A DNA stretch of 64,000 bases from Mariniflexile litorale. Its GTDB lineage: Bacteria > Bacteroidota > Bacteroidia > Flavobacteriales > Flavobacteriaceae. Location of the stretch: assembly GCF_031128465.2 (NCBI RefSeq), contig NZ_CP155618.1:4330501-4394500 (forward strand), given 5' to 3'. This document shows, piece by piece, positions 5,265-47,093 of the stretch. The notes below the pieces were generated by a model that saw only the letters and a program-made list of their open reading frames with translations, was not told where the DNA came from and did no database searches. The first letter of the stretch is position 1. Each line of letters begins with the position of its first letter. The translations under genes and the position numbers were made by a program.

Positions 5265-5275
5265 TAAGAAAAACC

Positions 5276-6103: not shown

Positions 6104-6118
6104 AAATTACATGAGATA

Positions 6119-6154
6119 TATCATATAACAAAAAAACAGCTACTTATATATTTG
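6119..6154 (+). promoter_or_regulatory. Putative porin promoter, twin of the nrtA promoter
   Basis: TATCAT at 6119-6124 and TACTTATATATTTG at 6141-6154 repeat the two elements upstream of nrtA with the same 22-base offset. The -7 element TATATTTG is 6147-6154. No -33 TTG is seen. The shared architecture predicts co-regulation of the porin with nrtA. Confidence 0.5.
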
Positions 6155-6225
6155 AAAAACAAAACATAAGCAGCAAAAACATAATAAATAAAGGACAACC
6201 ATAACTTAAAAATCAAAAAAAAAAA

Positions 6226-7464: not shown

Positions 7465-7511
7465 AATCTCAATACATATCTGTACTTCTCTATAAAAGAC
7501 ATATTAAATAT

Positions 7512-7550
7512 AAAATGAATCTCATAGTGTTATGGGGTTCATTTTTTTTT
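7512..7550 (+). terminator. Rho-independent terminator after the porin gene
   Basis: A 15-bp stem with G-T wobbles (7512-7526 with 7531-7545) closes a GTGT loop and runs into nine T bases at 7542-7550. It marks the end of the nitrate locus. Confidence 0.85.
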
Positions 7551-7633
7551 AAGCATTTCAAAAATCGAGTTTAAGGGGCAACCATTCGAAATGAAAGTAA
7601 ATAATATTATATTTACTCCTTAATTTATTTCAT

Positions 7634-8722
7634 TTGAATTCAAAACAAATTGCAAACGGCATTCTAAGGGCAGTAACCATTATTTTTGGCATTGTTTTGT
7701 TATTGTGGTTTTTATATAAAATCCAGTCCGTTATTAGCTATATTGCTATTGCGGCAGTTATTTCTTTAATAGGTAGACCATTAGTACTGTTTTTAGAGCG
7801 GCGTTTGAAGTTTAAAAACACAATAGCTGTTATTGTGACCATGGCTATACTTATAGGATTGTTTGTTGGTTTAGCAGCTTTATTTATTCCTTTAATAATG
7901 AAGCAAGGGCATAATTTGTCGTTGTTAAATATCAATGAACTTCAAAGTAATATCAAAGATTTGTATATTGAAATCACCAACTATTTTAATATATATCAAA
8001 TTGATTTAGAGGAGTCCATTAAAGAATCCCACCTCTTATCTAAAATAGACTACGCACTTATACCTAACTTTTTAAACTCTATAATTAGCGGTTTGGGCAG
8101 TTTTAGCATTGGGCTTTTTTCGGTGCTATTTATTTCCTTTTTCTTTTTAAAAGACAGTCGTTTATTTGAAAATGGCGTGCTTACATTTATACCGGATAGT
8201 AAAGAGCTTCATTGGAAAAATTCTTCAACAAAAATTAAAGATTTACTCTCCCGATATTTTGTGGGTCTTATTTTTCAAATACTCATCCTATTCCTTATTT
8301 ATACCATCGGGTTGCTCTTTATAGGTGTAGAAAATGCGATTGTTATTGCATTCTTATGTGCGCTACTTAACCTTGTACCTTATGTAGGGCCACTGGTTGG
8401 TGCTTTTTTAATGTTAGCACTTACCATGACAAGTAACCTAAACGAAAGTTTTAGTGGTGTTATTTTACCTAAAACATTTTGGGTATTTGTTGTTTTTATT
8501 ATTGGACAATTGATTGATAATTTTTTAAGTCAACCTATCATTTTTTCAAAAAGTGTAAAATCACATCCGTTAGAAATATTTTTAGTGATTTTAATTACAG
8601 GCATATTATTTGGCGTTATTGGATTAATACTTGCAGTACCTGTATACACAGCCATAAAAGTTATTTTAAAAGAGTTTCTATCTGAAAACAAAATTGTAAA
8701 AAAACTGACTAAAGATTTATAA
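7634..8722 (+). CDS. AI-2E family transporter (permease of the UPF0118 type)
   Basis: This is a 362-residue polytopic inner-membrane protein. Two N-terminal helices (about 11-50) and a third (about 60-80) are followed by an amphipathic soluble stretch (about 85-150). Four or five more helices follow, including the conserved NLVPYVGPLVGA segment near 245-257 and DNFLSQPIIFSKSV near 295. That pattern is the AI-2E/TqsA-PerM family, whose members include autoinducer-2 exporters and Na+/H+ antiporters; the substrate here is unknown. The start is TTG at 7634. The next gene begins 6 bases after its stop, so the two probably share a transcript. Confidence 0.88.
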   Translation: MNSKQIANGILRAVTIIFGIVLLLWFLYKIQSVISYIAIAAVISLIGRPLVLFLERRLKFKNTIAVIVTMAILIGLFVGLAALFIPLIMKQGHNLSLLNINELQSNIKDLYIEITNYFNIYQIDLEESIKESHLLSKIDYALIPNFLNSIISGLGSFSIGLFSVLFISFFFLKDSRLFENGVLTFIPDSKELHWKNSSTKIKDLLSRYFVGLIFQILILFLIYTIGLLFIGVENAIVIAFLCALLNLVPYVGPLVGAFLMLALTMTSNLNESFSGVILPKTFWVFVVFIIGQLIDNFLSQPIIFSKSVKSHPLEIFLVILITGILFGVIGLILAVPVYTAIKVILKEFLSENKIVKKLTKDL

Positions 8723-8728
8723 CTCCTT

Positions 8729-9919
8729 TTGAATACATATATTTTAAATACTGAAATTCAAGAATTTATTGATAAAAACTTAAATTCTGATATTGCTTCT
8801 TTATTGCTAAAAGGAACCAACTTCCCCTCTATTGAAACTAAAGAAATTATTGAACAAATTGAAGCCAAAAAGCGTTGTGAAAAGAAACTATCAACTTGGT
8901 TTGAATGTAAAAACATATACTACCCTAACAAATTAAACATTGAGCAAACTTCCTCTGAAATAACAGCTCAATATAAATCAAGCCTCATGAATGGCGAATC
9001 CATCATCGACTTAACAGGGGGTTTTGGTGTAGATTGCTATTATTTTTCAAACGTTTTTAAAAAGGTTGTACACTGTGAAATTAACGAAGATCTTTCTAAA
9101 ATAGTAACACACAATTACAAACAATTAGCGATTCAAAATATAAACACAGAAGCTATAGACGGTATTAACTATTTAAAAAACAGCGACAAAATATGTGATT
9201 GGATTTATATAGACCCTTCTCGAAGACATGATAGTAAAGGCAAAGTCTTTTTTCTAAATGATTGTTTACCCAACGTGCCAGAGCATCTCGATTTATTATT
9301 CAAACATTCAAAAAACATTTTAATTAAAACATCGCCCCTCCTCGATTTATCGGTTGGTATTAACGAGCTAAAACATGTTAAAACCATTCATGTAGTAGCA
9401 GTAAATAATGAGGTTAAAGAATTACTTTGGGTTTTAGAAAACGGATTTACAGAAGGTATTTCAATTAAAACCATCAACCTTAAAAAAAACACAAATGAAG
9501 TTTTTAATTTTTCTATAGAAAGCGAAAAAACAACAACTTCTTTATATAGCAAACCACTCACCTATTTATACGAACCCAACAGTGCCATTTTAAAAGCTGG
9601 CGGCTTCGAGTCTATTAGTAACCAATTGCATGTTTTTAAGCTTCACAAACATTCACATTTATACACAAGTAATAGCTTAATAGATTTTCCTGGAAGGTGT
9701 TTTAAAATTGAACAAACACTACTTTATAATAAAAAAACTATAAAAAAGTTAGGCATAAATAAAGCCAATATTACCACGCGAAACTTTCCCGAAACGGTAG
9801 AACAACTCCGAAAAAAATTCAATATTAAAGATGGTGGCGATTGGTATTTGTTTTTTACTACCAACATGGAAGATAACAACCTAATGGTGCTAACAAAAAA
9901 AGCAGATTCATTTAACTAA
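8729..9919 (+). CDS. Class I SAM-dependent methyltransferase with THUMP-like/PG_1098-type domains
   Basis: This is a 396-residue protein. The N-terminal third is a helical, ferredoxin-like region. The SAM-binding motif DLTGGFGVDCYYF lies near 92-104, an acidic residue binding the ribose follows in HCEINE, and WIYIDPSRRH (about 154-163) is a DPPR-like catalytic motif. The C-terminal part (YEPNSAILKAGGF onward) is the THUMP-like domain seen in Bacteroidota proteins of this class. It is probably an RNA methyltransferase, but the target is unknown. It starts with TTG at 8729. Its TAA overlaps the stop codon of the opposing gene. Confidence 0.8.
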   Translation: MNTYILNTEIQEFIDKNLNSDIASLLLKGTNFPSIETKEIIEQIEAKKRCEKKLSTWFECKNIYYPNKLNIEQTSSEITAQYKSSLMNGESIIDLTGGFGVDCYYFSNVFKKVVHCEINEDLSKIVTHNYKQLAIQNINTEAIDGINYLKNSDKICDWIYIDPSRRHDSKGKVFFLNDCLPNVPEHLDLLFKHSKNILIKTSPLLDLSVGINELKHVKTIHVVAVNNEVKELLWVLENGFTEGISIKTINLKKNTNEVFNFSIESEKTTTSLYSKPLTYLYEPNSAILKAGGFESISNQLHVFKLHKHSHLYTSNSLIDFPGRCFKIEQTLLYNKKTIKKLGINKANITTRNFPETVEQLRKKFNIKDGGDWYLFFTTNMEDNNLMVLTKKADSFN

Positions 9920-10884
9920 ATATCAAGACAATCTAACCGCTCTATAAAAAATGTTTTATACGTTATATCAGTAATATGACGTGTTTCCTTAGTCCCTTTA
10001 AGATATATTGATTGTATCGACGCCCTTTTTAAACTTCGTATTTGCGAATTAGACAAATTACCTCTAAAACTAAACTCACCACAATCCATATCCCAAGAAT
10101 GATAAAACGTTATGGTTTGATTATTTTCAAGAATTACTTTTACCGAAGATCTGTTACTAGGTAAATAACTTGCACACCCTAAATCTTCAGACAAATTAAA
10201 AAACACGTTGGTGCTTCTGCCTCTTTTAAACAATTCAATAGTTAAATCTTTATTAAGTATATAAGGAATCGTTCTAACAATTTTTATTCTATCAATAGTA
10301 TCATATTCATTCATAGAATAATCGCAAGTACTTAACACATCCTTTTTTTCTAATAATTCTTCCTTATTTAATTTTTCTTCAACTTTATTCGGAACTGCTT
10401 TAATTTCTACTTGCTTATTTTCTTCTATTTTAATATTTACAATAGAATCTAATCGCCTCTTTTCAACAAGCTCGAGGGCTTTTATTCTTTCAAATTCTTT
10501 TAGCTCTAAGCGCTTCTGTTCCTCTTCTCCTTCCTTTATAATAATCTGTACATCTGCCTTTCTCTTTTTTTCTTCAGTCATTATTCTCAATCTTTCACTA
10601 TCCTGAAAATCATAATACAAATCCATGACGGCTTCATTTACAACTAAATATTGAGAATCTACAAACCCTACCAAATCGTTATATTTAACTTTATAAATTT
10701 CTTTTCCAAAGTAACCTACTACTACACAAGCATCACCACTTTTAAAGTCTGTTAAAACATCAGAAGAATTATTTAAACTTCTATACAAACTACCCTCTTG
10801 TGAGAACTCACTAACTATGTTTGCTTCTTGGGAAGACGCATTTATCGCTAAGCTTAAAAAAATTAAGGCTATATATTTAGTCAT
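9916..10884 (-). CDS. Uncharacterised secreted protein with SH3-like domain and coiled coil
   Basis: The function is not recognised. The chosen start (M at 10884) gives a 322-residue protein with a clean signal peptide (about 1-19, ending INASSQ). An SH3-like segment (about 20-85) contains a VGYFGKEIYKVKYNDLVGFVDSQYL stretch typical of bacterial SH3_3 folds. A charged coiled coil rich in Glu and Lys (about 95-185) follows, then a beta-rich C-terminal domain with scattered Cys (CDYS, GCASY, DCGEF, DCLDI). An upstream in-frame ATG at 10932 would add 16 residues before the signal. The stop codon overlaps that of the convergent methyltransferase gene by two bases. Confidence 0.75.
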   Translation of the reverse strand: MTKYIALIFLSLAINASSQEANIVSEFSQEGSLYRSLNNSSDVLTDFKSGDACVVVGYFGKEIYKVKYNDLVGFVDSQYLVVNEAVMDLYYDFQDSERLRIMTEEKKRKADVQIIIKEGEEEQKRLELKEFERIKALELVEKRRLDSIVNIKIEENKQVEIKAVPNKVEEKLNKEELLEKKDVLSTCDYSMNEYDTIDRIKIVRTIPYILNKDLTIELFKRGRSTNVFFNLSEDLGCASYLPSNRSSVKVILENNQTITFYHSWDMDCGEFSFRGNLSNSQIRSLKRASIQSIYLKGTKETRHITDITYKTFFIERLDCLDI

Positions 10885-10950
10885 AATTATTCTATTAAAA
10901 GAATGTCTAATTGAGGAAAGCAATATTTTCAATTCGAAGGTATGAAAAAC

Positions 10951-10986
10951 AAAAAAGCTTCACTAATTATTAAGGAAGCTTTTTTT
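10951..10986. terminator. Bidirectional hairpin terminator
   Basis: AAAAAAGCTTC (10951-10961) pairs perfectly with GAAGCTTTTTT (10976-10986 within a longer T run), with a 14-base loop. It lies upstream of the leftward secreted-protein gene and downstream of the IS982 relic, so on the minus strand it would stop transcription entering from the right. Confidence 0.7.
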
Positions 10987-11031
10987 GAGCTAAATAAACC
11001 TTAGTTTAAATTAAATAGTAATCTTTTTCTA

Positions 11032-11259
11032 CTATCCAAATCTTACTGGATTTAAATGTATATCACCTAATTTAACGTGAGTTGGATGTAACTTTAATTC
11101 AATTCTTTGTAGTCTATCTATATTGATGTTTGGTTTAGTAAGATTAATGAAATAATTCCAGATATTAAGATTAGTTATAAAATTATAAAAACACCAGTGT
11201 CTTGTATGCTCAATCTGATATTCGTTTTTAATATATTATTCACACTTTCGATTTGTTTT
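11032..11259 (-). pseudogene. Decayed IS982-family transposase fragment (C-terminal part)
   Basis: The minus strand encodes QIEHTRH followed by an NF..NL pattern and then KPNINID. This resembles the C-terminal signature of IS982-family transposases (QIEHTRHRS, NF-NL, KKPS). The frame ends in TAG at 11032-11034. It is interrupted by TAA at 11236-11238, beyond which K-x-x-E residues still fit the family's catalytic region. No start codon, terminal inverted repeats or other transposase domains are seen, so this is a relic. The last 25-30 residues do not resemble the family and may be drifted sequence. Confidence 0.5.
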
Positions 11260-11335
11260 AGAATTCTACAAAACTATTATATATACTTCAACCAAACCAA
11301 TAGAAACAATAACGAAATAACCACTTGACATTAAA

Positions 11336-11369
11336 TATTGAATCCCCGAGGTTGCCCGAGGATTCAATA
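11336..11369. terminator. Hairpin in the intergenic region, terminator-like
   Basis: TATTGAATCC (11336-11345) pairs perfectly with GGATTCAATA (11360-11369) across a G+C-rich 14-base loop; AAAAAATTCTTTTTTT follows. It could be a terminator or part of a structured RNA. The sequence between 11260 and 11486 otherwise shows no gene. Confidence 0.45.
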
Positions 11370-11486
11370 AAAAATTCTTTTTTTAACTTGATAAAAACCT
11401 TAAGGTTTCTAATTTTTCTATAAAACACGAATGTAAAATCAATAAATAAACCAATTAAAAAGGCTTATTTTATAAAAAACTATCCT

Positions 11487-11591
11487 TTATGTTCGTTTTG
11501 CTTTTTTTGCAAGTTTAGCTGCTTTCTTTTCTTTTGGAGTTAAAAGAGGTTCCTTCTTAACAGTTTTCTTTGCGTCTTGAGATTTTGCCAT
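11487..11591 (-). CDS. Small lysine-rich protein (34 residues)
   Basis: The frame starts ATG at 11589-11591 and ends TAA at 11487-11489. The 34-residue product begins MAKSQDAKKTVKKE and ends KLAKKAKRT: 13 lysines, one arginine, no membrane segment. A similar MAK-starting basic peptide is encoded at 47570-47728. Such short basic proteins are common beside cold-shock or ribosome-linked genes in Flavobacteria, and a nucleic-acid-binding role is a guess. No other gene explains the 370 bases around it. Confidence 0.6.
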   Translation of the reverse strand: MAKSQDAKKTVKKEPLLTPKEKKAAKLAKKAKRT

Positions 11592-11745
11592 AGTAAGTAA
11601 ATTTAATTAAACAATGTGTTAAATTATTTCCTATGCAAGATACAAAAACCGTCCAAATGAATCCAATAAAGAAGTAAAAATTAGTTTAATTTAAAAGCCT
11701 TATTTTATTAAATTTACATTCTAAATTATAACTAAATTAAACATT

Positions 11746-12360
11746 ATGAAAATTCTGGCTATCGGAAAAAACTACGTAAATAATAAAGAAGAAATCATTG
11801 ACAATAAAACAGGAAATCAAATTATATTTTCTAAGCCAGAATCGAGTCTTGTAAGAGACAATAAAGATGTGGTTTATCCTAGCTTTACCAATCAATTAAA
11901 TTATGAAATTGAGTTGGTAATTAAAATTGGAAAAAAAGGTAAAGACATTCGTTTAGAAGATGCTGCTTCTTACATTTCAGAAATTGGTGTTGGTATCGAT
12001 TATACCGCTAAAGATGTTTTTAATGCTTGTAGAGAAACCAAGGGGCCTTGGGATTTAGGTAAAGGTTTTGATGGTGCTGCGCCTATTTCTAAATTCAAAC
12101 CCGTATCTAATTTTCCTAAATTGAACGATATTAATTTCAATTTAGTAATAAATGGAGATGAAAAACAAGTTGGAAACACCGCGTTAATGATTTACACATT
12201 CAGCGATATTATAGCCTTTATTTCCAAATACATGACTTTAGAACCTGATGATTTAATATTTACAGGAACGCCTGCCGTAGGTGCAGGTGAAATTTTTAAA
12301 GGAGACCATCTGCAATGTTTTATTGAAGGAGAATTGCTTTTAGATTTTAAAATGATATAA
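11746..12360 (+). CDS. Fumarylacetoacetate hydrolase family protein
   Basis: This 204-residue single-domain FAH-fold protein is the size of acylpyruvase/FAHD1-type enzymes. The family's metal ligands are visible: the two Glu of YEIELVIKIG (about 64-73) and the Asp of GVGIDYTAKDV (about 83-93). The substrate-binding DLGKGFDGAAPIS follows (about 104-116), and FTGTPAVGAGEIFKGD sits near the end. These enzymes cleave or decarboxylate acylpyruvates or oxaloacetate in the cytoplasm; the actual substrate cannot be read from sequence. It precedes the acetate-linked CBS/DUF294 gene by 39 bases and may be cotranscribed with it. Confidence 0.88.
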   Translation: MKILAIGKNYVNNKEEIIDNKTGNQIIFSKPESSLVRDNKDVVYPSFTNQLNYEIELVIKIGKKGKDIRLEDAASYISEIGVGIDYTAKDVFNACRETKGPWDLGKGFDGAAPISKFKPVSNFPKLNDINFNLVINGDEKQVGNTALMIYTFSDIIAFISKYMTLEPDDLIFTGTPAVGAGEIFKGDHLQCFIEGELLLDFKMI

Positions 12361-12399
12361 TTCTTGTTTTAAAATAAATAAGAATTATAAATTTACTGA

Positions 12400-14319
12400 A
12401 TGAAAAATTCTATTGCAGAACGTGTTTACGACTTCTTAAAAAATTATCCACCTTTTAATATTTTAAAAGATCGTGATTTGTTGGAAATATCTAAACAAGT
12501 GTCCATTATTTATTTAGAAAAAGGCGATACACTGTTTAAAAAAGGCGACACTTTTAACGAGCACTTCTATATGGTTCGAAACGGTGCTATCACTTCTTTT
12601 CACACGAATACGAATAATGTACAAGAAATTGTAAACATAAGCGATGCGGGCGATATCTTTGGCGTACGTCCACTCATTGCCAAAGAAGATTACAAACTTA
12701 CCGCAACGGCTAATGAAGAATCCATTGTGTATGCTATTCCTATAGACACCTTTCAAGTCGTTACAAATAACAATGCTAAGGTTTATAAATTTTTAATTAC
12801 AGCCTTCGCAACAAATGCTTACGATCCCTATACTGCCGAAGAAACGGGTAAAATATTTGCTGATTATTTACCGAGTACTTCACAGGATGTTGTAAGTTTT
12901 CAAACAGCTAATTACACTAAAAACCCCATTACATGCGATTTTAATGCGTCGTTAAAAGAGGCTGCCATTAAAATGAGTAGACACAAAATTGGCTGTATCA
13001 TTGTTGTGGATAGTAATACAAATCCTGTTGGCATTATTACAAACAGCGACATTAAAAACAAAGTTGCCACGGGTTTATTTCCTATTGAAACGCCTGTTAC
13101 CAATATAATGAGTTCGCCTGTTATCACAAATAAAAAAGATTTAACAGTAGCCGATGGTCAATTACAAATGATAAAACATAGCATTGGACATTTATGTATT
13201 ACCAAAGATGGTACGGTAAATTCTAAGCTTATTGGTGTGTTAACCCACCACGATGTTTTAGTTACTTTAGGTAACAATCCATCGGTGATATTAAAAGAAA
13301 TAAAACGTGCCCGACGTACCAAAAAATTAAGAACTGCTAGACTAAAAGCCAATACACTATTAAAAAGTTATTTAGAACAAAATATTCCCGTATCGCATAT
13401 CATTAAAATCATTTCCCAAATTAATGATGCTGTTACTGTTCGTGCTATAGAATTGGCTTTAAAGAAAATGCCAGCACCACCTCCAGTCGCATTCTCTTGG
13501 TTGTCACTAGGCAGTCAAGGCAGAAAGGAACAATTGCTATTTACTGATCAAGATAATGCTATTGTTTTTCAGGATGTTGAAAAAGATAAATATGAAGAAA
13601 CGCAATCTTATTTTTTAGAATTAGCCAAACTGGTTACCAAGTCATTAAACAAAATTGGATTTGAATATTGTGAAGCCGATATGATGGCACGTAATGCTGA
13701 GTGGTGCAAATCTATTACCGATTGGAAATTACAATTTGAAAATTGGATTTTAAATCCAGACGAAAAAGCCATTTTATTATCGTCTATCTTTTTTGATTAT
13801 AGTTCTGTATATGGTGAAAAAAATCTGGTTGATGAATTATCCGATTCTATTTATGAGTCACTAAGCAAAACATCCTTATTTTTTAAGTTTTTAGGTAGAA
13901 ATGCACTTAAAAACCCACCGCCACTTGGTTTTTTTAAACAATTTCTAGTAGAAGAAAATGGCGAACAAAAAGACCTTTTCAATATAAAAAGCAGAGCCTT
14001 AATGCCATTAATTGATGCCGCCAGATTGCTTACTCTAAGTAACAACATAAAAGGGATTAACAACACTTCGGAACGTTTTGAAAAGTTGGCAGAAATTGAA
14101 CCCAATAACAAAGAGCTCTACCAATCATGTTCGTATGCCTTTAAAGCACTTTCAAAATTTAAAAGCAAACAGGGTTTATTACATAATAATTCCGGTCGAT
14201 TTATTGAATTAGAAACACTTACTAAAGAAGAAAAATTAAAATTAAGACGTTGCTTTAAGCCTATTCAAGAAATTCAAGAAGCTTTAAAAATGAGATTCGA
14301 TTTAAAAAACTTTATATAA
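12400..14319 (+). CDS. cNMP-binding/CBS/DUF294 nucleotidyltransferase-like signalling protein
   Basis: This is a 639-residue cytoplasmic protein. A cyclic-nucleotide-binding fold (about 18-115), a CBS pair (about 170-290) and a DUF294 nucleotidyltransferase domain (about 310-450) are followed by DUF294_C (about 480-625). The nucleotidyltransferase motif GSQGRKEQ...TDQDNA (about 371-388) is intact, resembling GlnD-type enzymes. The CBS pair probably senses adenine nucleotides. It is followed by a DEDDh exonuclease and then, on the opposite strand, acs, actP and DUF4212. This grouping is widespread and suggests a regulator of acetate uptake and activation. Confidence 0.88.
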   Translation: MKNSIAERVYDFLKNYPPFNILKDRDLLEISKQVSIIYLEKGDTLFKKGDTFNEHFYMVRNGAITSFHTNTNNVQEIVNISDAGDIFGVRPLIAKEDYKLTATANEESIVYAIPIDTFQVVTNNNAKVYKFLITAFATNAYDPYTAEETGKIFADYLPSTSQDVVSFQTANYTKNPITCDFNASLKEAAIKMSRHKIGCIIVVDSNTNPVGIITNSDIKNKVATGLFPIETPVTNIMSSPVITNKKDLTVADGQLQMIKHSIGHLCITKDGTVNSKLIGVLTHHDVLVTLGNNPSVILKEIKRARRTKKLRTARLKANTLLKSYLEQNIPVSHIIKIISQINDAVTVRAIELALKKMPAPPPVAFSWLSLGSQGRKEQLLFTDQDNAIVFQDVEKDKYEETQSYFLELAKLVTKSLNKIGFEYCEADMMARNAEWCKSITDWKLQFENWILNPDEKAILLSSIFFDYSSVYGEKNLVDELSDSIYESLSKTSLFFKFLGRNALKNPPPLGFFKQFLVEENGEQKDLFNIKSRALMPLIDAARLLTLSNNIKGINNTSERFEKLAEIEPNNKELYQSCSYAFKALSKFKSKQGLLHNNSGRFIELETLTKEEKLKLRRCFKPIQEIQEALKMRFDLKNFI

Positions 14320-14354
14320 TTATATTAACCATTTAAAAATAATAGATATAACAA

Positions 14355-15023
14355 ATGAATTTTGATTGGTTATTTAAGAAAAACCAAAAAAATCCTGATT
14401 TTTGGCAGGCATATCTCGATACGTTCAATAAAAAGAAAAGGAAAGATACTTCTATTGCAAACACCCGTTTTATAGCTTTTGATACTGAAACCACAGGATT
14501 TGATAAAAAAGAAGACCGTATTTTATCTATTGGAGCTGTTTCATTTGTTGGGAAAACCATTCAGGTAAAGAATAGTTTGGAGTTATATTTAGATCAGGAT
14601 GTTTTTAGACCAGAAACTGTTAAAATTCATGGGTTAATGAAATCGGGCTCTCCAGATAAAGTATCGGAATTAGAAGCTATAAAAATCTTTTTAGCTTATA
14701 TTAAAAATGCGGTTTTAATAGCACACCATGCCAATTTTGATAAAAATATGGTAAACGAAATGCTTGCAAGACATGATTTAGGAAAACTAAAAAACAAGTT
14801 TATTGATACTGGTGTTTTGTACAAAAAATCACTTCACATAATTTACAGACAAAAAGAAAAAATATACACTCTAGATGAATTAGGAAAAGAATTAAACGTC
14901 CCAATGGTAGATAGACATACAGCTACTGGAGATGCTTTAATAACTGCTCTAGTATTTTTAAAAATTACAGGACGTTTAGACAAACGTAAAAACCTAGATT
15001 GGGGTTATTTATTAGATGGATAA
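14355..15023 (+). CDS. DEDDh 3'-5' exonuclease (DNA polymerase III epsilon-like)
   Basis: This 222-residue exonuclease has the ExoI motif FDTETTG (about 39-45), the ExoII region AHHANFDKNMV (about 124-134) and the ExoIII HTATGDALITA (about 195-205), giving the D-E-D-D-H set. It is shorter than a replicative DnaQ with tau- and alpha-binding tails, so it is more likely a stand-alone exonuclease. It lies 35 bases after the CBS/DUF294 gene and is convergent with acs. The pairing of this exonuclease with CBS/DUF294 proteins near acetate genes is known in many bacteria, but the reason is unclear. Confidence 0.85.
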   Translation: MNFDWLFKKNQKNPDFWQAYLDTFNKKKRKDTSIANTRFIAFDTETTGFDKKEDRILSIGAVSFVGKTIQVKNSLELYLDQDVFRPETVKIHGLMKSGSPDKVSELEAIKIFLAYIKNAVLIAHHANFDKNMVNEMLARHDLGKLKNKFIDTGVLYKKSLHIIYRQKEKIYTLDELGKELNVPMVDRHTATGDALITALVFLKITGRLDKRKNLDWGYLLDG

Positions 15024-15033
15024 TCTCAAAAAA

Positions 15034-15073
15034 ACCACAAATACACTTATATCAAGTTTAGTGTATTTGCGGT
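15034..15073. terminator. Bidirectional terminator between exonuclease and acs
   Basis: ACCACAAATACACT (15034-15047) pairs with AGTGTATTTGCGGT (15060-15073) with one mismatch. It is flanked by A runs on the left and T runs on the right, so it can end both the rightward exonuclease transcript and the leftward acs transcript. Confidence 0.75.
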
Positions 15074-15090
15074 GAATTTTTTAATTTACA

Positions 15091-16998
15091 TTAAAGAGCA
15101 TTATCCATAATATCCTGCACCACTTCTGGGTTTAACAAGGTGCTTGTATCACCTAAATTTGAGGTGTCTTTACTTGCTATTTTACGTAAAATACGACGCA
15201 TGATTTTTCCTGAACGTGTTTTAGGTAAACCTTGTGTAAATTGAATTTTATCAAGTTTTGCTATAGGTCCAATTTTATCGGAAATAAGTTGATTTATTTC
15301 TTTTCGTAAATTATTTTGGTCTCTCGACTCGCCCGTATCTTTAAGCGTTACATAACCATATAAAGCACTTCCTTTAATATCATGTGGAAAACCTACAATA
15401 GCTGATTCAGCTACTGCTGGGTGTTCATTAATGGCATCTTCAATAGGTGCTGTTCCTAAATTATGCCCAGACACAATAATAACATCGTCTACCCTACCCG
15501 TGATACGGTAATACCCCACTTCATCTCGCAAGGCACCATCACCTGTAAAATATTTATTTTCATAAGCAGAAAAATAGGTTTCTCTATAACGTTCATGATT
15601 TCCCCAAATCGTACGAGCTATAGAGGGCCAAGGAAATTTGATACACAAACGTCCTTCTACTTGATTGCCTTTAAGTTCACTACCATGTTCATCCATTAGT
15701 ACAGGTTGTATACCTATAAAAGGCAAAGTCGCATAAGTTGGTTTTGTTGGAGTAACATAGGGTATGGGTGTTATCATGATACCTCCAGTTTCAGTTTGCC
15801 ACCAAGAGTCTACAATAGGGCTTTTGTTTTTCCCCACCACATCGTTATACCAATGCCATGCTTCTTCGTTGATAGGTTCACCAACACTTCCTAATACTTT
15901 TAAAGATGATAAATTATATTTTTCAACCAACTCGACACCTTGTTTTGCCAAAGCACGAATAGCGGTTGGTGCCGTATAAAACTGTGTCACTTTATGTTTT
16001 TCCACTATTTCCCAAAAACGTCCAAAATCTGGATAACTAGGTACACCTTCGAACATAACCGTAGTCGCTCCATTCGCTAGCGGTCCGTAAACAATGTAGC
16101 TGTGTCCAGTAATCCAACCAATATCAGCCGTACACCAATACACATCATTTTCACGATACTGAAACACATTCTTAAAAGTATAAGCAGTATAAACCATATA
16201 ACCTGCCGTGGTATGCACCATGCCTTTTGGCAACCCTGTTGATCCTGAGGTATATAATATAAATAAAGGATCTTCTGCATCCATTATTTCGGCTTTACAG
16301 TCTGTTGAAGCTGCATCTAAAAGTGGTTGTAACCATAAATCGCGCCCCTCTTTCATTGTTACTTCAGAATTAGTGCGTTTTGTAACTAACACCCTTTTTA
16401 CACCTGGACATTGATCTAAAGCTTCATCTACAATCCCTTTTAAATCGATTGATTTAGCGCCTCGATAAGATCCATCGGCTGTAATAACCATTTTACAATC
16501 ACTATCATTAATTCGTGTTGCTAATGCTGTTGAAGAAAATCCAGCAAATACCACTGAATGAATGGCTCCTATGCGTGCACAGGCTAAGAGTGAAATAGCA
16601 AGTTCTGGAATCATGGGTACATAAATACACACTCGATCACCTTTTTGTATACCTTGCGCTTTCAATACGTTAGCAAACTGATTAACCCGTTTGTACAACT
16701 CACTGTAAGTAATATGCTCTGATGGCTCATCTGGATTATTGGGTTCGAACAAAATTGCGGTTTTATCACCACGGGTTGCTAAATGCCTATCAATACAGTT
16801 TTCGGTAATATTAAGCTTCGCCCCTTCAAACCATTTTACTTCAGGTTTAGTGAAATCCCAACTTAATACATGGTCCCATTTTTTGCGCCATACAAAATGT
16901 TCTTCAGCTACTTCTTCCCAAAAATTTTCGGGCTCTCTAATGGATTTTCTATAAACTTGATAATATTCTTCTAAATGTTTTATGTGGTAATTACTCAT
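15091..16998 (-). CDS. acs: Acetyl-CoA synthetase
   Basis: This is the AMP-forming acetate:CoA ligase, 635 residues, full length for the family. The adenylate-binding loop YTSGSTGLPKG is near 250-260. VDSWWQTETGG (about 394-404) holds the acyl-AMP pocket with the acetate-selecting Trp. The acetylation-regulated catalytic lysine is in KTRSGKIMRR near the C-terminus. The start ATG at 16998 is consistent with the conserved NYHIKHLEEYYQVYRKS opening. It converts acetate delivered by the adjacent ActP-like symporter to acetyl-CoA. The upstream gap to actP contains tandem repeats. Confidence 0.96.
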   Translation of the reverse strand: MSNYHIKHLEEYYQVYRKSIREPENFWEEVAEEHFVWRKKWDHVLSWDFTKPEVKWFEGAKLNITENCIDRHLATRGDKTAILFEPNNPDEPSEHITYSELYKRVNQFANVLKAQGIQKGDRVCIYVPMIPELAISLLACARIGAIHSVVFAGFSSTALATRINDSDCKMVITADGSYRGAKSIDLKGIVDEALDQCPGVKRVLVTKRTNSEVTMKEGRDLWLQPLLDAASTDCKAEIMDAEDPLFILYTSGSTGLPKGMVHTTAGYMVYTAYTFKNVFQYRENDVYWCTADIGWITGHSYIVYGPLANGATTVMFEGVPSYPDFGRFWEIVEKHKVTQFYTAPTAIRALAKQGVELVEKYNLSSLKVLGSVGEPINEEAWHWYNDVVGKNKSPIVDSWWQTETGGIMITPIPYVTPTKPTYATLPFIGIQPVLMDEHGSELKGNQVEGRLCIKFPWPSIARTIWGNHERYRETYFSAYENKYFTGDGALRDEVGYYRITGRVDDVIIVSGHNLGTAPIEDAINEHPAVAESAIVGFPHDIKGSALYGYVTLKDTGESRDQNNLRKEINQLISDKIGPIAKLDKIQFTQGLPKTRSGKIMRRILRKIASKDTSNLGDTSTLLNPEVVQDIMDNAL

Positions 16999-39650: not shown

Positions 39651-39740
39651 TATTCTATAATTTAGTGCATTTATTAAAAATGTACCCTTTTAATTATTTT
39701 AGTTTTAATATAAGCTACAACCTTAAAAGGATGCATTATG

Positions 39741-39809
39741 TATATTTTGCACATTTTGGTATATTTTGCACATTTTGGCATATTCTGCATGTTTTGGTAT
39801 ATTTAACAC
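39741..39809. repeat. 19-bp tandem repeat array
   Basis: TATATTTTGCACATTTTGG occurs twice exactly (39741-39759, 39760-39778), then once with four changes (39779-39797) and as a 12-base partial unit. It lies between pckA and rlmF. Confidence 0.9.
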
Positions 39810-39820
39810 AGAGTCACATT

Positions 39821-39875
39821 ATCTACGGAGTATCTACTAAGCATCTACGAAGCATCCTCGGAGTATCTATGAGAA
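39821..39875. repeat. 11-bp tandem repeat array (ATCTACGAAGC type)
   Basis: Five 11-base units occur with small differences: ATCTACGGAGT, ATCTACTAAGC, ATCTACGAAGC, ATCCTCGGAGT and ATCTATGAGAA. It begins only 12 bases after the 19-bp array and ends 64 bases before the rlmF stop. Confidence 0.88.
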
Positions 39876-41594: not shown

Positions 41595-42878
41595 TTATGC
41601 TTCTTTAGAAACTTTTTCTTTTTTCTTCCTCCAATAATTTGCCAATAAAGAGCCTGAAATATTCATCCAAGGGCTAAAAACAGCCGCAGCTAAACCAACC
41701 GTAGCCAGTTTTCCCATCGAGCCTGCCAAACCAGATGCCATCCCGCCATTTTGTAAACCGACCTCTAAAGCCACAGTTCTGCATGAATTTTTATCTAAAC
41801 CTAGGGCTCTACTTATCCAATAACCAAATGTATAACCTAATGCATTATGTATGATAGACGCTAATAGTATAAAAACACCAATAGTAAGGATATGATCTCT
41901 ACTTGCAGCAGTAGTTACTGTTGTGAAATATACAATACCAAACATGGAAAGTATGGGCATGAAATTATGGATTGTAGGCTTGAACGCAACCAAATGATAA
42001 TATAATTTTCCCACTATAACAGCTCCAAAAATAAAGTTGATTAATTCTACCAATTGCATAGTGCTTTCTGATGAAGAGGATTCAATAAAATCCCAAAGTC
42101 CAGAAATCATAGCAACTAACCATCCCAATGCTACAAAAAAGACTGTATTTATACGTTTCCTAGCTCCTTTTAAATCTTGTGAATAAACATCATAAAGTAA
42201 AGCTGCTCCAATAGGTACAATCACTATTTTAATAATTTGAACACACATCCCTAAAAAGTCAATTTCCACATAAGTACCAGCCAAAAGTTTCATCATTAAT
42301 GGCGTCATAATAGGTGCTAATAAAGTTGCTACCGCTGTTAATGTTACTGAAAGGGTTAAGTTCGCTTTTGCTATAAAAACCATAACATTTGAAGCCAAAC
42401 CGCTCGAACATGAACCTATAAGAATGATACCCGCTGCAATTTCAGGTTCAAAATTAAATATACGTGTTAGCATGTACCCCACTATAGGCATGATGGTAAA
42501 TTGACACAACACACCTACAAGCACTCCTTTCCCCATGGTTTTAATCCCATAAAAATCTTTGATACTCATTTGGGTTCCCATACCAAACATAACCACCTGA
42601 ACCACAATAAGAATAAGCCATTTGTTACGAAGATCGAAACTTCCCCATTGTAAAAAAGCAGATGGATAAAACATACCACAGACTATGGCTACTAAAATCC
42701 ATGCGGTGTATTGATAGCTTTTTAAGGAGGCTACAGACCGCATACCTACAGCTAAAGTAACAGCTGAAATTACCGATAAAGGTGCTACTAAATTATCCCA
42801 ATTAATTAATACAGCTAACAAAAGAGTAACCGCCGAAATAAGTCCAATCCACAATATATATTTTTCAACCTGCTTCAT
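41595..42878 (-). CDS. Bile acid:sodium symporter (BASS) family transporter
   Basis: This 427-residue inner-membrane protein has about ten helices in two inverted repeats, as in ASBT-like Na+-coupled symporters. Landmarks are the crossover GIILIGSCSSGLASNVMVFIAKANL (about 148-172) and the second-half crossover VALEVGLQNGGMASGLAG (about 369-386), where Na+ ligands Glu and Gln lie. It is longer than the usual 300-330 residues because of extra N-terminal helices. It ends the RuBisCO-like operon (gap of 3 bases from the gene before it) and probably imports the acid-sugar substrate. Confidence 0.85.
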   Translation of the reverse strand: MKQVEKYILWIGLISAVTLLLAVLINWDNLVAPLSVISAVTLAVGMRSVASLKSYQYTAWILVAIVCGMFYPSAFLQWGSFDLRNKWLILIVVQVVMFGMGTQMSIKDFYGIKTMGKGVLVGVLCQFTIMPIVGYMLTRIFNFEPEIAAGIILIGSCSSGLASNVMVFIAKANLTLSVTLTAVATLLAPIMTPLMMKLLAGTYVEIDFLGMCVQIIKIVIVPIGAALLYDVYSQDLKGARKRINTVFFVALGWLVAMISGLWDFIESSSSESTMQLVELINFIFGAVIVGKLYYHLVAFKPTIHNFMPILSMFGIVYFTTVTTAASRDHILTIGVFILLASIIHNALGYTFGYWISRALGLDKNSCRTVALEVGLQNGGMASGLAGSMGKLATVGLAAAVFSPWMNISGSLLANYWRKKKEKVSKEA

Positions 42879-42881
42879 CGA

Positions 42882-43544
42882 TTACAGAATTTTAGCTAAA
42901 TATTCCATAGCAATTTCTGGACTCGCTAAAATGGGTACTTTTTTATCGGCTTCTGAAAGTTGGCCTACAACTCTTGCCATAGACGCTTGTGCTAATAAAA
43001 TAACATCTACTTTTTCGGCTAATTCTTTTAATGCTGAAGCCACCATTTGGTCGTGTACTTCTGGTTTTCCGCCCATTAAAGCTTCAAAAGCACCTTCACA
43101 AAGTTTAGAGGTTATTTCTACATCCTGATTTAAAATAACAGCGCGTCTTCTCACTAAATCGCTTGTAGGCTCTAAGGTTGTTGGCAACGTAGCAATCACT
43201 CCTACGCGTTTTCCTAATTGCACTGCTTTATCTACCATCGGTTGATCGACCCGTAAAACAGGTACTTTTGTTAATGGCACCGAACTTTCAACCGCTGCAC
43301 CTATAGAGGAACAGGTTACCATGATATAATCGGCCCCAGCTTCTTCGGCAGACCCGATATAATTTACAACTCTACGTGAGGTATCAGGTGTTACTTTACC
43401 GCGTTCAATGGTGTTTTTTATTAAACTATCATCAACAATATTAAATATTTTAATGTCTTTTCCTTTTAAGTGTTTATCAATCAACTCTTGAAATAAAGGC
43501 ACTAAAGTTGCCGAGGTATGTATTAATGCTAATGTTTTTGCCAT
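42882..43544 (-). CDS. Aspartate/glutamate racemase-family enzyme with one conserved active-site cysteine
   Basis: This is a 220-residue protein. The first catalytic cysteine of the family is present (C78 in MVTCSSIGAA). The usual second cysteine position reads Q186 in VILLAQASMARV. Two-base racemases need both, so this enzyme is more likely an isomerase, decarboxylase or lyase of the arylmalonate decarboxylase/maleate isomerase superfamily. It is encoded between the kinase and the symporter with short gaps (19 and 3 bases), so it should act on the same substrate. Confidence 0.8.
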   Translation of the reverse strand: MAKTLALIHTSATLVPLFQELIDKHLKGKDIKIFNIVDDSLIKNTIERGKVTPDTSRRVVNYIGSAEEAGADYIMVTCSSIGAAVESSVPLTKVPVLRVDQPMVDKAVQLGKRVGVIATLPTTLEPTSDLVRRRAVILNQDVEITSKLCEGAFEALMGGKPEVHDQMVASALKELAEKVDVILLAQASMARVVGQLSEADKKVPILASPEIAMEYLAKIL

Positions 43545-43563
43545 GATATATTTAATTTATGTT

Positions 43564-44964
43564 TTAAATTGATTTTTTTCCTTTTTGTAATGCTCCGAAA
43601 TAGGTTTCATCACCTACTTGCCCGCCTTTTAAATTAACTTCTATATTGTTTACTGGTGAATTTGGTGCCAATGCACGACACATAGGAGCTCCAATAAAAA
43701 CCGGTGCAATCATTTCTACTGCTTTTATACCCAATTCTCTGGCTACATAACTAGACGTATCGCCTCCTGCAATAATTAAACGCTTCACTGGAACTTGCTC
43801 TAAGGCACGTCTTGCTGATTGACCTAAAATTTTACCGAAACGTTTTGCCGTTTGCGAACGAATCATTTGTTCATCCCAACCTTTCTTATTGAAAAATGCT
43901 TTCGTTTCTTGAAATCGAGTATCTTCAGGTCCTTTGGAGGTATGAAGAATGACGCTTTTCCCTGCTTTTAAGTAACTGGTTATTTTTTCTTGATAATCAT
44001 TAATTAAACGTGCTTCTGAATCCTCATTTTCTAAAGCTTCAACTGAAACTGATATTTCTTCAAATCCGTTAGCTACTGCCCAATTAATTTGAGATGCCGT
44101 AACAGGAGATACACTTCCAGAAAGTACCAACATAGGTTGGCATTCTTCTAACACTTCCCAATCTGTTCGCTGTTTTAATTTTCCTGTTTTTGCCCAATAG
44201 TCACCCAAAGCCTTTTCTACACCTGATGAACCGACTGAAAAAAGCGGTGTGTTTTCATCAACTTTAGCATCTATAACTTCTCCTAGAATTTGCATTTGGT
44301 TTTCGTACATCGCATCAAAAAACACGATATGGTTTCCTGCTTCTATTTCTTCTGAAAGTTTTTCTTTTATTTCTAAAATATTTTTACCCAAATCAACCAA
44401 ATCAATTAATCCCATAGGCTGATTGATTTGTTTAGACAGATGCATTCTTAAATCGCTTTCATGTGAAGGTGTAATAGGATGTTTACTCATAGACGGATGT
44501 CTGTCTAATCTATAAATAGCACCTTGACTACCAATGCCCATACGTGCGTATAAATGTCCGAATGCGGCATAACGACCCAAATTTGGTGCAGCTACTAAAA
44601 TAGGCGTAAATTCATTATTAAAAGTACGTACTCCACATTGAATGGCTGTTCCTATATTACCTATTTCGGGTGAAGAATCAAAGGTTGAACAGACTTTATA
44701 ATGGACATGTCGTGGTTTTAATTGTATTAAAGATTGAAAGGCTTTATCTAAAACGCTAGCCATTTCATCAGGAACCATAGCACGCGTCATTCCTGCAACA
44801 CCAATGGCATCCAAATCTTTAAATTGCGTAAGAAGTTCTATAGTTGGATTTTCTAGAAAAAGTACGGTTTTTGCTCCTGCTCTACTTAAAAATTCGAGAG
44901 CATCAGTAGAACCTGTAAAATCATCACCATAAAAAGCTAATAAAATATCTTTAGTCTTTTCCAT
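43564..44964 (-). CDS. DUF1537 four-carbon acid-sugar kinase
   Basis: This 466-residue cytoplasmic kinase has the N-terminal substrate-binding motif YGDDFTGSTDALEF (about 13-26) and the C-terminal nucleotide-binding half, which includes IIAGGDTSS (about 396-404) and VNLKGGQVGDETYFGAL near the end. The family comprises kinases for D-threonate, D-erythronate and 3-oxo-isoapionate, all acid sugars. Paired with a RuBisCO-like protein here, the OiaK-type activity (3-oxo-isoapionate kinase) is the closest known precedent. The specific substrate cannot be decided from sequence. Confidence 0.88.
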   Translation of the reverse strand: MEKTKDILLAFYGDDFTGSTDALEFLSRAGAKTVLFLENPTIELLTQFKDLDAIGVAGMTRAMVPDEMASVLDKAFQSLIQLKPRHVHYKVCSTFDSSPEIGNIGTAIQCGVRTFNNEFTPILVAAPNLGRYAAFGHLYARMGIGSQGAIYRLDRHPSMSKHPITPSHESDLRMHLSKQINQPMGLIDLVDLGKNILEIKEKLSEEIEAGNHIVFFDAMYENQMQILGEVIDAKVDENTPLFSVGSSGVEKALGDYWAKTGKLKQRTDWEVLEECQPMLVLSGSVSPVTASQINWAVANGFEEISVSVEALENEDSEARLINDYQEKITSYLKAGKSVILHTSKGPEDTRFQETKAFFNKKGWDEQMIRSQTAKRFGKILGQSARRALEQVPVKRLIIAGGDTSSYVARELGIKAVEMIAPVFIGAPMCRALAPNSPVNNIEVNLKGGQVGDETYFGALQKGKKSI

Positions 44965-44969
44965 GAAGC

Positions 44970-46211
44970 TTAACCAAATTTAACAACAGATTCTCCAAAC
45001 TCTTTATACTGTTTTGCTGTTTCTTCCAAAGTCATCCCTTTTACAGCCGAATCCCAAGCTTGGTGTAATGCGCGAACACCACCAGCAGGACCAGAAGGAT
45101 GTGCCATAATTCCACCTCCTGCCATATAAAGCAAATTGGTGGTTTGGGTTCTTTTATAGGTTTCAAAAGCTTGACCGCCCCATTGACCAGAAGACACTAC
45201 TGGAATAACCGATTCATTATTTAAAAAGGGGGTGTGGCATGATTTTATGGAACGAACCACAGCGTCATCAGACTCCCAAAACTTATTTTTTATACCATTT
45301 ACATGCATTTGATCGACACCTGCCAATCTCCAAATTTTATTGTATGCTGGAAAATTTATACCTAAAAGCGGATGTCTATTTAACATACCCCAGCCATTTC
45401 TATGCCCGTGAATAGAGAGCTCCCCAAAATCACAAACCTGCTTTACGCCTGCCCAACCTATACTATTAATACTCATCATGGCACAAGTTCCTCCTGCTTT
45501 TACAACCGTATCATAATTGGTTTTCATGGTATCTAAATCGCCGGTAATATTAAAGGCATACATGATTTTTTTACCTGTTTTATCTGCAAAATCATTAATC
45601 ACTTTCATAATTTGTTCAACCCTTACTGCAAAAGGTGAATTTCCTGAAGACGCTAAGAGTTCATCATCTTTAACAAAATCAATACCTGCTTCTGCCAAAG
45701 TTTTAACCAAATTGGCTGTGTATTCTGGGGTTAAACCCACACTTGGTTTTATTATAGTTCCAATCATGGGGCGTTCTAAGCCAACCGAAGCGAGCTCTTT
45801 AGTGCCTTTCATTCCAAAATTAGGTCCTTTAAAATGATTCTTATAAGACTCTGGCAATTCGAAATCGTCTAACTTAAGACCTGTAAACTGACGTAATTCG
45901 TATAAATTGCCTTGAAGTGTTGAAATGAGTGTTGGTATGTTATATCCAAAATTTTCAACAGACCAAGACACAGTCACTTTAGCCTGTGTATAGGTTTTAT
46001 TATCAATTATTTCACCAGGCATACTCGGTGCAGAAACCTCTCCTAATACTTCAATGGCTTCAACCCGAGCAGCAAAACGTGTTTTAAGTTCATCGGTTTC
46101 TCCAGGCACCGATACAAAAGTTCCACTAGATTGCTCGCCTGCAAGTACAGCAGCGGCTTGTTCTACCTTATAAGGTGTTTCAATAAGATATGTTGCTTGT
46201 ATTCTTTCCAT
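44970..46211 (-). CDS. RuBisCO-like protein (form IV-type), likely decarboxylase or isomerase
   Basis: This 413-residue protein keeps the RuBisCO fold and key catalytic positions: the Lys of TIIKPSVGL (K155), the carbamylation motif VKDDE (K181, D183, E184), HGHRNG (268-273), the loop-6 lysine region HVNGIKNKF (303-311), SSGQWGG (340-346) and GGGIMAHPSG (365-374). The second lysine of the TIKPK motif is Ser. It is therefore not a CO2-fixing form I-III enzyme but could still bind Mg2+ through a carbamylated lysine. Neighbouring kinase, racemase-like enzyme and symporter genes suggest it acts on a phosphorylated 3-oxo acid sugar, as OiaX or OiaT do in D-apionate pathways. Confidence 0.85.
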   Translation of the reverse strand: MERIQATYLIETPYKVEQAAAVLAGEQSSGTFVSVPGETDELKTRFAARVEAIEVLGEVSAPSMPGEIIDNKTYTQAKVTVSWSVENFGYNIPTLISTLQGNLYELRQFTGLKLDDFELPESYKNHFKGPNFGMKGTKELASVGLERPMIGTIIKPSVGLTPEYTANLVKTLAEAGIDFVKDDELLASSGNSPFAVRVEQIMKVINDFADKTGKKIMYAFNITGDLDTMKTNYDTVVKAGGTCAMMSINSIGWAGVKQVCDFGELSIHGHRNGWGMLNRHPLLGINFPAYNKIWRLAGVDQMHVNGIKNKFWESDDAVVRSIKSCHTPFLNNESVIPVVSSGQWGGQAFETYKRTQTTNLLYMAGGGIMAHPSGPAGGVRALHQAWDSAVKGMTLEETAKQYKEFGESVVKFG

Positions 46212-46436
46212 TTAAAATATGCGTAAAAAAGTATATACTGTAAAATTGAACATAATTTTTGTTAACACTATCCTGCTCTACCCTGTAAAAATGCATAAAG
46301 TTTTTTAGACGAAAGTAAGTTGAAATAGTAAAAATTTAAATCATTTGATTAAGAGGTGACTTAGGAAAAACAACCTCATTGTTTTTATTGGGCTTATTTA
46401 GACTATTCTTATATCTTCGCAAAAAATAAAATTGAA

Positions 46437-47093
46437 ATGCTAAAAGCTGTGATTTTTGATATGGATGGGGTTATTATTGAAAGTGAACCTCTTCATCATT
46501 ATGCTTACCATAAAATGTTTAATGATGTAAATGTAGAAGTGAGCGATACACTATATGAAACGTTTACGGGAAAATCAACTATAAATGTTTGTAAACAAGT
46601 TTGTGAACTTTTTAGTTTAAAAGAAACCCCAGAATATTTGGTATCTTTAAAAAGAAAGCATTTTGATGCTGTTTTTAATAACAATGTTGATTTCGATTTG
46701 ATTGAAGGTGTTTTGAATTTAATCAAAGACCTTCACAGTAATGGGGTTACATTGGTTTTAGGATCCTCTGCCACCATGCCAAGTATTGAACGTATTTTTA
46801 ATCGTTTTGATTTAAACCCTTATTTTATTGGCAAACTAAGTGGTGCCGATTTAAAACAATCCAAACCGCATCCTGAAATTTTTATTAATGCCGTTAAATT
46901 ATCTGGATTTAAACCTGAAGAATGTATGGTCATTGAAGATTCTACCAATGGTATTTTAGCAGCTAAAGGTGCAGGTGTATTTTGCATTGGCTTTGATAGT
47001 TTTCACTCTAAAAACCAAGATTACAGTAAAGCAGATTTAGTGATTAAAAAGTTTGAAGAAATTAGTTTTGATAAAATTAAAACACTACTTTAA
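46437..47093 (+). CDS. HAD-superfamily phosphatase (subfamily IA, beta-phosphoglucomutase-like)
   Basis: This 218-residue cytoplasmic hydrolase has HAD motif I FDMDGVIIESE (about 7-17), motif II LGSSA (about 109-113), motif III lysine near KQSKPHPEIF (about 137-146) and motif IV VIEDSTNGILAAK (about 157-169). The helical cap is inserted after motif I. It is transcribed divergently from the RuBisCO-like operon with 225 bases between them, so it could dephosphorylate a pathway product, but generic sugar-phosphate phosphatases of this type are common. It overlaps the next gene's 3' end by nine bases. Confidence 0.82.
   Translation: MLKAVIFDMDGVIIESEPLHHYAYHKMFNDVNVEVSDTLYETFTGKSTINVCKQVCELFSLKETPEYLVSLKRKHFDAVFNNNVDFDLIEGVLNLIKDLHSNGVTLVLGSSATMPSIERIFNRFDLNPYFIGKLSGADLKQSKPHPEIFINAVKLSGFKPEECMVIEDSTNGILAAKGAGVFCIGFDSFHSKNQDYSKADLVIKKFEEISFDKIKTLL

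Follow-up and report, generated by a model that had tools for sequence, protein, structure and literature searches.

RuBisCO-like proteins (RLPs) of Agrobacterium and Xanthobacter reportedly decarboxylate 3-oxo-isoapionate 4-phosphate, or transcarboxylate and hydrolyse it (PMC6302742). Here we analyze a 64,000-nucleotide stretch of the Mariniflexile litorale genome (contig NZ_CP155618.1, positions 4,330,501 to 4,394,500; hereafter the window), in which genes for an RLP, a DUF1537 kinase, an Asp/Glu-racemase-fold protein and a BASS-family transporter form one minus-strand operon with gaps of 5, 19 and 3 bases in the list of open reading frames (ORFs). From gene neighborhoods and chemistry we infer the substrate and all four reactions, and we consider it likely that the operon breaks down, in the cytoplasm, L-aceric acid that originates in plant rhamnogalacturonan II (RG-II). 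Gene order, protein families, co-occurrence and active-site residues were observed directly. The system probably adds to the known acid-sugar catabolism by RLPs and DUF1537 kinases, represented by OiaX (3-oxo-isoapionate-4-phosphate decarboxylase) and OiaK (3-oxo-isoapionate kinase) of the D-apionate pathway, with a different substrate. The genes are:

44970..46211, minus strand: RLP, first gene of the operon, 413 amino acids; Pfam RuBisCO_large, 200.5 bits
43564..44964, minus strand: DUF1537 acid-sugar kinase, 466 amino acids; Pfam SBD_N/NBD_C
42882..43544, minus strand: Asp/Glu-racemase-fold protein, predicted aldose-ketose isomerase, 220 amino acids; Pfam Asp_Glu_race
41595..42878, minus strand: BASS-family transporter, predicted Na+-coupled sugar-acid importer, 427 amino acids; Pfam SBF, 101 bits

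A preliminary description made from the DNA letters had noted four tightly packed leftward genes, which the ORF coordinates bear out, and Pfam agrees with it on the families. As it also proposed, proteins of these families would together suffice to transport, isomerize and phosphorylate an acid sugar and to cleave a C-C bond in it. Its third suggestion, a relationship to OiaX and OiaK, finds support in that these are the best-matching NCBIfam models of the RLP (NF042437, 494.1 bits) and the kinase (NF042436, 415 bits), though both scores fall under the curated cut-off of 700. The BASS protein scored under the cut-offs of the NCBIfam PanS and BASS models. MtnW (TIGR03332; 136.2 bits, under the 513.6 cut-off) and carboxylating RuBisCO of form III (TIGR03326; 239.1 bits, under the 497.45 cut-off) were rejected as identities for the RLP.

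The likeness to the OiaX system extends to gene order, an RLP gene followed by a DUF1537 kinase gene, to the type of substrate predicted for the RLP, a phosphorylated alpha-hydroxy-alpha-branched beta-keto acid, and to the metal-ligand and loop Lys residues, which the RLP keeps; conserved in the alignment are K155, K181-D-D-E184, H270-R271, H303, K310 and S341. The protein is 47.9% identical to a Rhizobium OiaX, whose locus carries a 6PGDH-like gene besides ABC and TRAP transporter genes; unlike in the window, neither a racemase-fold nor a BASS gene lies within 9 kb there. Of 44 residues tabulated, eight (29, 91, 102, 221, 247, 303, 304 and 311) differ from both named OiaX proteins, among them N102, N221, S247 and H303 where the two share G102, G221, N247 and Q303. 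The closest solved structure, the RLP 3nwr (E 5.5e-112), also keeps His at position 303, whereas N305 is replaced by His and the same loop differs at further positions. Placement inside a clade of known function, which the preliminary description named as a refuting outcome, was not seen: a quick tree built from 57 of the 100 aligned RLP rows put the RLP outside the two named OiaX sequences; an RLP split between frames in genome G061 was counted as present and left out of this alignment (A1) and tree. OiaT of Xanthobacter, a 3-oxo-isoapionate-4-phosphate transcarboxylase/hydrolase RLP compared by its described reaction only, resembles the reaction type proposed below for the last step.

Conservation of the operon and its gene neighborhoods

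A scan of named genomes confirmed 521 RLP loci, of which we kept 80, spanning Bacteroidota, Verrucomicrobiota, Planctomycetota and a few other groups. Across these named loci tblastn detected the kinase in 75, the racemase-like gene in 75 and the BASS gene in 72, and ORF calling placed the kinase next to the RLP in 72. In 69 named loci the contig runs on for 4.5 kb or more on the downstream side of the RLP, and 64 of these hold all four genes, so the linkage noted in the window persists, and in 66 of the 71 loci having all four (of the 80) they lie on one strand in the same order (rearranged in L034, L042, L052, L086 and L088). Because the genes are kept together, in strand and order, across loci, the four-gene set is a real unit. 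Within the family Flavobacteriaceae the RLP is rare and patchy, matched in 10 of 299 genomes; one of these, G071, holds a remnant match (E 2.4e-4) and is left out of the nine RLP genomes counted hereafter. Besides the genome of the window, eight family genomes carry a full-length or split RLP; in seven the four genes follow the window's order, and the eighth, G115, has a lone RLP.

We clustered the neighbors of the RLP in the 80 named loci together with six loci of the family sample, 86 in all, leaving out ORFs below 120 amino acids and the four operon genes and reporting families present in at least four loci. The commonest was aceric acid hydrolase (GH127), found in 36 loci, in 22 of which it adjoins an operon gene; next came GH106 (16 loci), DUF5703 (16), SASA esterase (15) and a GH137-like family of about 370 amino acids (13). 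The member of this last family in the genome of the window (G000, a single contig of 4.52 Mb) matches positions 2-364 of a 1400-position beta-D-glucuronidase/beta-L-arabinofuranosidase model, a part that we take to be the GH137 portion of an RG-II enzyme. Among 60 loci whose flanks are complete, 40 contain one or more of five families of RG-II side-chain-B type, and 29 contain the hydrolase. Further pectin-type neighbors were GH2, GH78, GH95 and pectate-lyase-like genes, and several loci in the family are flanked by GH106, GH2, GH88, SASA-esterase and GH127 genes.

Among the 80 named loci the hydrolase was matched in 38, and in 23 a gap of 17-215 bases separates the end of the match from the RLP, which lies downstream on the same strand (three of the 23 matches are partial). 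The gene directly upstream of the RLP in L018 scores 1097.7 bits against the aceric acid hydrolase model NF049879, whose cut-off of 950 is reached by seven of ten copies tested. G000's is one of these (C1:2310865-2312817; L153:8806-10824), scoring 1112.8 bits, in a stretch with GH106-like, SASA, DUF5703, GH2, GH31, GH78, GH95 and apiosidase-family genes. GH127 also includes carrageenan 3,6-anhydrogalactosidases (PMC5698469); we dropped that reading of the neighbors because of the NF049879 scores and the GH106- and GH137-like company.

The RLP and the hydrolase also co-occur across genomes. In the family sample the hydrolase exceeds its cut-off in 13 of 298 genomes, including 8 of the 9 with a full-length or split RLP (Fisher p 8e-12), and in a set of Bacteroidota genomes selected at 90% completeness, with the RLP called at E 1e-100, all 8 RLP-bearing genomes of 392 are among the 21 with a hydrolase over the cut-off (Fisher p 1.6e-11); these p-values are indicative only, as the tests treat 298 and 392 related genomes as independent and the samples overlap (G000 and G127 at least). 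The exception in the family sample is G115, whose lone RLP has changed catalytic residues. It is also the one RLP genome among the 53 of the family whose GH127 matches all fall under the cut-off.

A proposed route for L-aceric acid

In the pathway we envisage, L-aceric acid (3-C-carboxy-5-deoxy-L-xylose) would be freed from RG-II by the GH127 hydrolase encoded elsewhere in G000, and its anion would be imported with Na+ by the BASS protein. The racemase-fold protein, with its one catalytic cysteine, would then isomerize the aldose to the 2-ketose in a step that calls for an acid/base on one face only and involves no redox, shifting the carbonyl from C1 to C2 and so placing a ketone beta to the tertiary carboxylate. 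Phosphorylation of the ketose at C1 by the DUF1537 kinase would yield the methyl homologue of 3-oxo-isoapionate 4-phosphate, that is, the substrate of OiaX with a hydroxyethyl group replacing the hydroxymethyl group. Aceric acid fits chemically in that its ketose, reached without redox, is homologous to beta-keto acids of the OiaX type.

The RLP would decarboxylate the phosphorylated keto-aceric acid to an enediolate, for which we consider two endings. In an OiaX-like ending the enediolate would be protonated to give a 5-deoxypentulose 1-phosphate and CO2, and a housekeeping aldolase would then cut the sugar phosphate. In an ending like that of OiaT and RuBisCO, which we slightly prefer, recarboxylation on the neighboring carbon and hydrolysis would give 3-phosphoglycerate and lactate; the lactate would be L, derived from the configuration at C4. 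As a whole, a dedicated four-protein route in which a racemase-fold protein has turned aldose-ketose isomerase and an RLP with RuBisCO-like catalytic residues decarboxylates, recarboxylates and hydrolyses to 3-phosphoglycerate and L-lactate is a tentative proposal.

The racemase-fold protein scores above the PF01177 gathering threshold (31 bits) and has the fold of the superfamily. It has two cysteines, C78 and C149; the label "single-cysteine" given to it in the preliminary description holds for the catalytic positions, where only the first catalytic Cys of aspartate racemase is kept (C78) and the second is Ala187 in an alignment to aspartate racemase 1jfl. C78 and A187 are invariant in all 84 aligned sequences, the window's included, which sets the operon protein apart from aspartate racemase and hydantoin racemase; alignment A3 took in 49 of 76 racemase-like rows (75 listed plus the window).

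A doubtful alternative is a route in which the substrate is again aceric acid, an unlinked enzyme isomerizes it and the racemase-fold protein may be an epimerase or a helper in decarboxylation. The best structural matches of the protein are racemases, and arylmalonate decarboxylase (2vlb) is among the superfamily members in the structure search, although the searches gave the fold of the protein and not its function. Loss of the second base would be more in keeping with an isomerase that works through one base than with a two-base racemase, and the racemase-fold gene, found in 75 of the 80 loci, encodes the sole enzyme of the operon besides the kinase and the RLP. An unlinked candidate exists in a FucI/SftI-like isomerase encoded in six of the eight whole-operon genomes, but G245 and G100, two genomes with both operon and hydrolase, lack it. 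It occurs without an RLP in G134, G129 and G075, three of the five hydrolase genomes that lack one, and its distance from an apiosidase gene is at most about 10 kb in G000 and about 7 kb in G129 and G011. Given these absences, its presence without an RLP and the apiosidases beside it in three genomes, we rejected the module containing this isomerase as the partner of the RLP.

In the open-access literature, represented mostly by titles and abstract openings, we found no description of the bacterial fate of aceric acid after hydrolysis. If our proposal is right, the operon would provide a bacterial post-hydrolysis route for this RG-II constituent, and plant-wall-degrading bacteria would consume a rare branched acid sugar of pectin through a four-gene pathway led by an RLP. 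The RuBisCO superfamily would be extended by a new substrate and possibly by a new overall reaction, with a bearing on the kinship of carboxylation and decarboxylation chemistry, and the Asp/Glu racemase superfamily by a new activity. The operon would also be a genomic marker for fuller use of RG-II.

Other substrates and evidence against aceric acid

A variant D-apiose/D-apionate route, in which the RLP and kinase would handle 3-oxo-isoapionate in the manner of OiaX and OiaK and the racemase-fold protein would replace the oxidoisomerase ApnO, draws on the NCBIfam matches and on the apiosidase-family genes present in 13 of 15 genomes examined. Apionate must be oxidized to reach 3-oxo-isoapionate, so an operon that lacks an oxidoreductase suits aceric acid, an aldose needing no redox. 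None of the nine RLP genomes has a match to the 6PGDH-like gene of the Rhizobium OiaX locus, which we take as ApnO, whereas both control records do; the absence of an ApnO-type enzyme remarked on in the preliminary description therefore extends to these genomes. Apiosidase-like genes occur in 3 of the 80 RLP loci, against 38 for the hydrolase. Because the scores fall short of the OiaX and OiaK cut-offs, the ApnO-like gene is absent from all nine genomes and apiosidase-like genes are so few in the loci, D-apionate is an unlikely substrate; the eight residues that differ from both named OiaX point the same way. The earlier suggestion that the substrate may differ from D-apionate is thereby supported. 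In favor of the apiose variant, apiose is itself an RG-II sugar (PMC7939467, PMC6353982).

G000 moreover encodes a separate apiose-type module, with families assigned by similarity to genes of locus L021:

C1:4456614-4466493 (L155 1615-11494): DeoR-type regulator, FucI/SftI-like isomerase, split transketolase, ABC transporter that includes ribose-type components, and FGGY kinase

Apiosidase-family genes lie near it at C1:4449324 and C1:4453778, and it is likely a D-apiose module. It resembles the non-oxidative apiose route that Carter and colleagues reportedly described in 2018, said to consist of an isomerase, an apulose kinase and an apulose-4-phosphate transketolase. With this module present and RG-II-type enzymes as the neighbors at other loci, the idea in the preliminary description that the operon serves apiose or algal sugars was not supported.

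Another RG-II or pectin acid as substrate (Dha, Kdo, a uronic acid or a derivative, for example), with the RLP performing an unforeseen reaction, could explain the many other pectin enzymes that adjoin the operon (GH106, GH2, GH78, GH95 and pectate-lyase-like) and the loci lacking chain-B-type enzymes, but it is quite improbable given that the most frequent neighbor is aceric acid hydrolase and that, among the RG-II sugars listed in PMC7939467, only aceric acid would appear to have its carboxylate on a tertiary carbinol, as OiaX-type chemistry uses.

Several observations weigh against aceric acid as the substrate or against parts of the route. In G000 the hydrolase lies about 2 Mb from the operon, and in 20 of the 60 full-flank loci chain-B-type enzymes are absent within 10 kb. 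Three hydrolase copies from Verrucomicrobiota and Planctomycetota score just short of the 950 cut-off (917, 875.5 and 942.9). The RLP is absent from 13 of the 21 hydrolase-positive Bacteroidota genomes and from 5 of the 13 in the family, where other fates of aceric acid must therefore exist. Co-occurrence at the level of genomes would be expected for any RG-II sugar, apiose included, so that only adjacency and chemistry discriminate. The hydrolase adjoins the apiose-type module in G129, which has no RLP, and the kinase of that module in L094, L099 and L100, which weakens the separation of the two modules. In L074 (a Cytophagales metagenome-assembled genome) and L078 (Flectobacillus longus) the hydrolase is directly upstream of an intact RLP with no kinase in the locus. 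The argument from redox extends to the operon alone: oxidoreductase genes occur near it in some of the 86 loci, with two Gfo/Idh/MocA families in 12 and 6, an SDR family in 4 and zinc dehydrogenase in 4, adjoining an operon gene in 1, 0, 1 and 0 loci, respectively. Finally, no member of the racemase superfamily is known to us as an aldose-ketose isomerase.

Adjacent genes and irregular loci

Upstream of the operon lie an intergenic region and a divergent gene:

46212..46436, no strand assigned: region between the RLP and HAD genes, where the operon promoter is expected from a reading of the sequence
46437..47093, plus strand: HAD hydrolase, a chromosomal neighbor outside the operon, 225 bases from the RLP start; Pfam HAD_2

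The preliminary description had listed this HAD phosphatase with the operon. Its position is correct; as a member of the pathway we rejected it, judging it to lie outside the system because it is not conserved with the operon (close to the RLP in 1 of 80 named loci) and sits at the same chromosomal site in G071, where the RLP is only a remnant. That remnant, at 1501-1650 of L012 between the HAD gene and a methyltransferase gene, is an RLP-like stretch of 50 residues with four stops, likely left by an RLP lost at this site. Downstream of the PEPCK gene in the window, short tandem repeats occupy positions 39740-39869 (a 19-bp unit repeated 3.4 times and an 11-bp unit repeated 4.5 times).

The split RLP of G061 (L021, 8940-10180) lies in two overlapping frames, through decay or sequencing error, and is followed by kinase, racemase and BASS genes that are intact. 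Lone RLPs occupy the same PEPCK-HAD site in G115 (L019, 9690-10928) and in Aestuariibaculum marinum (L028, 10001-11239), with no kinase, racemase or BASS gene in either locus. In each of them H303 is replaced by Tyr, K310 by Thr or Ala and the GG366-367 pair by Asp-Ala, and between the two dN/dS is 0.06 at a dS of 1.8, which is near saturation. From their sequences they look like RuBisCO-fold pseudoenzymes under selection.

In L074 and L078, two secreted-looking genes (about 612-616 and 302-303 amino acids) follow the RLP. A gene of the enolase superfamily (MR_MLE) is present in five loci, with L094, L095 and L099 (Verrucomicrobiota) as examples, and adjoins an operon gene in four of the five; it is possibly an extra or alternative step there. 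G000 has a second DUF1537 gene in L023 (C1:2215000-2234500), in a stretch at 4670-16785 where PdxA-like and iron-dependent-dehydrogenase-like genes, recognized by eye, stand beside it. Three genes further on in L023 (407, 356 and 147 amino acids) resemble, again by eye, the solute-binding, Gfo/Idh/MocA and MaoC genes upstream of some Pedobacter-type operons.

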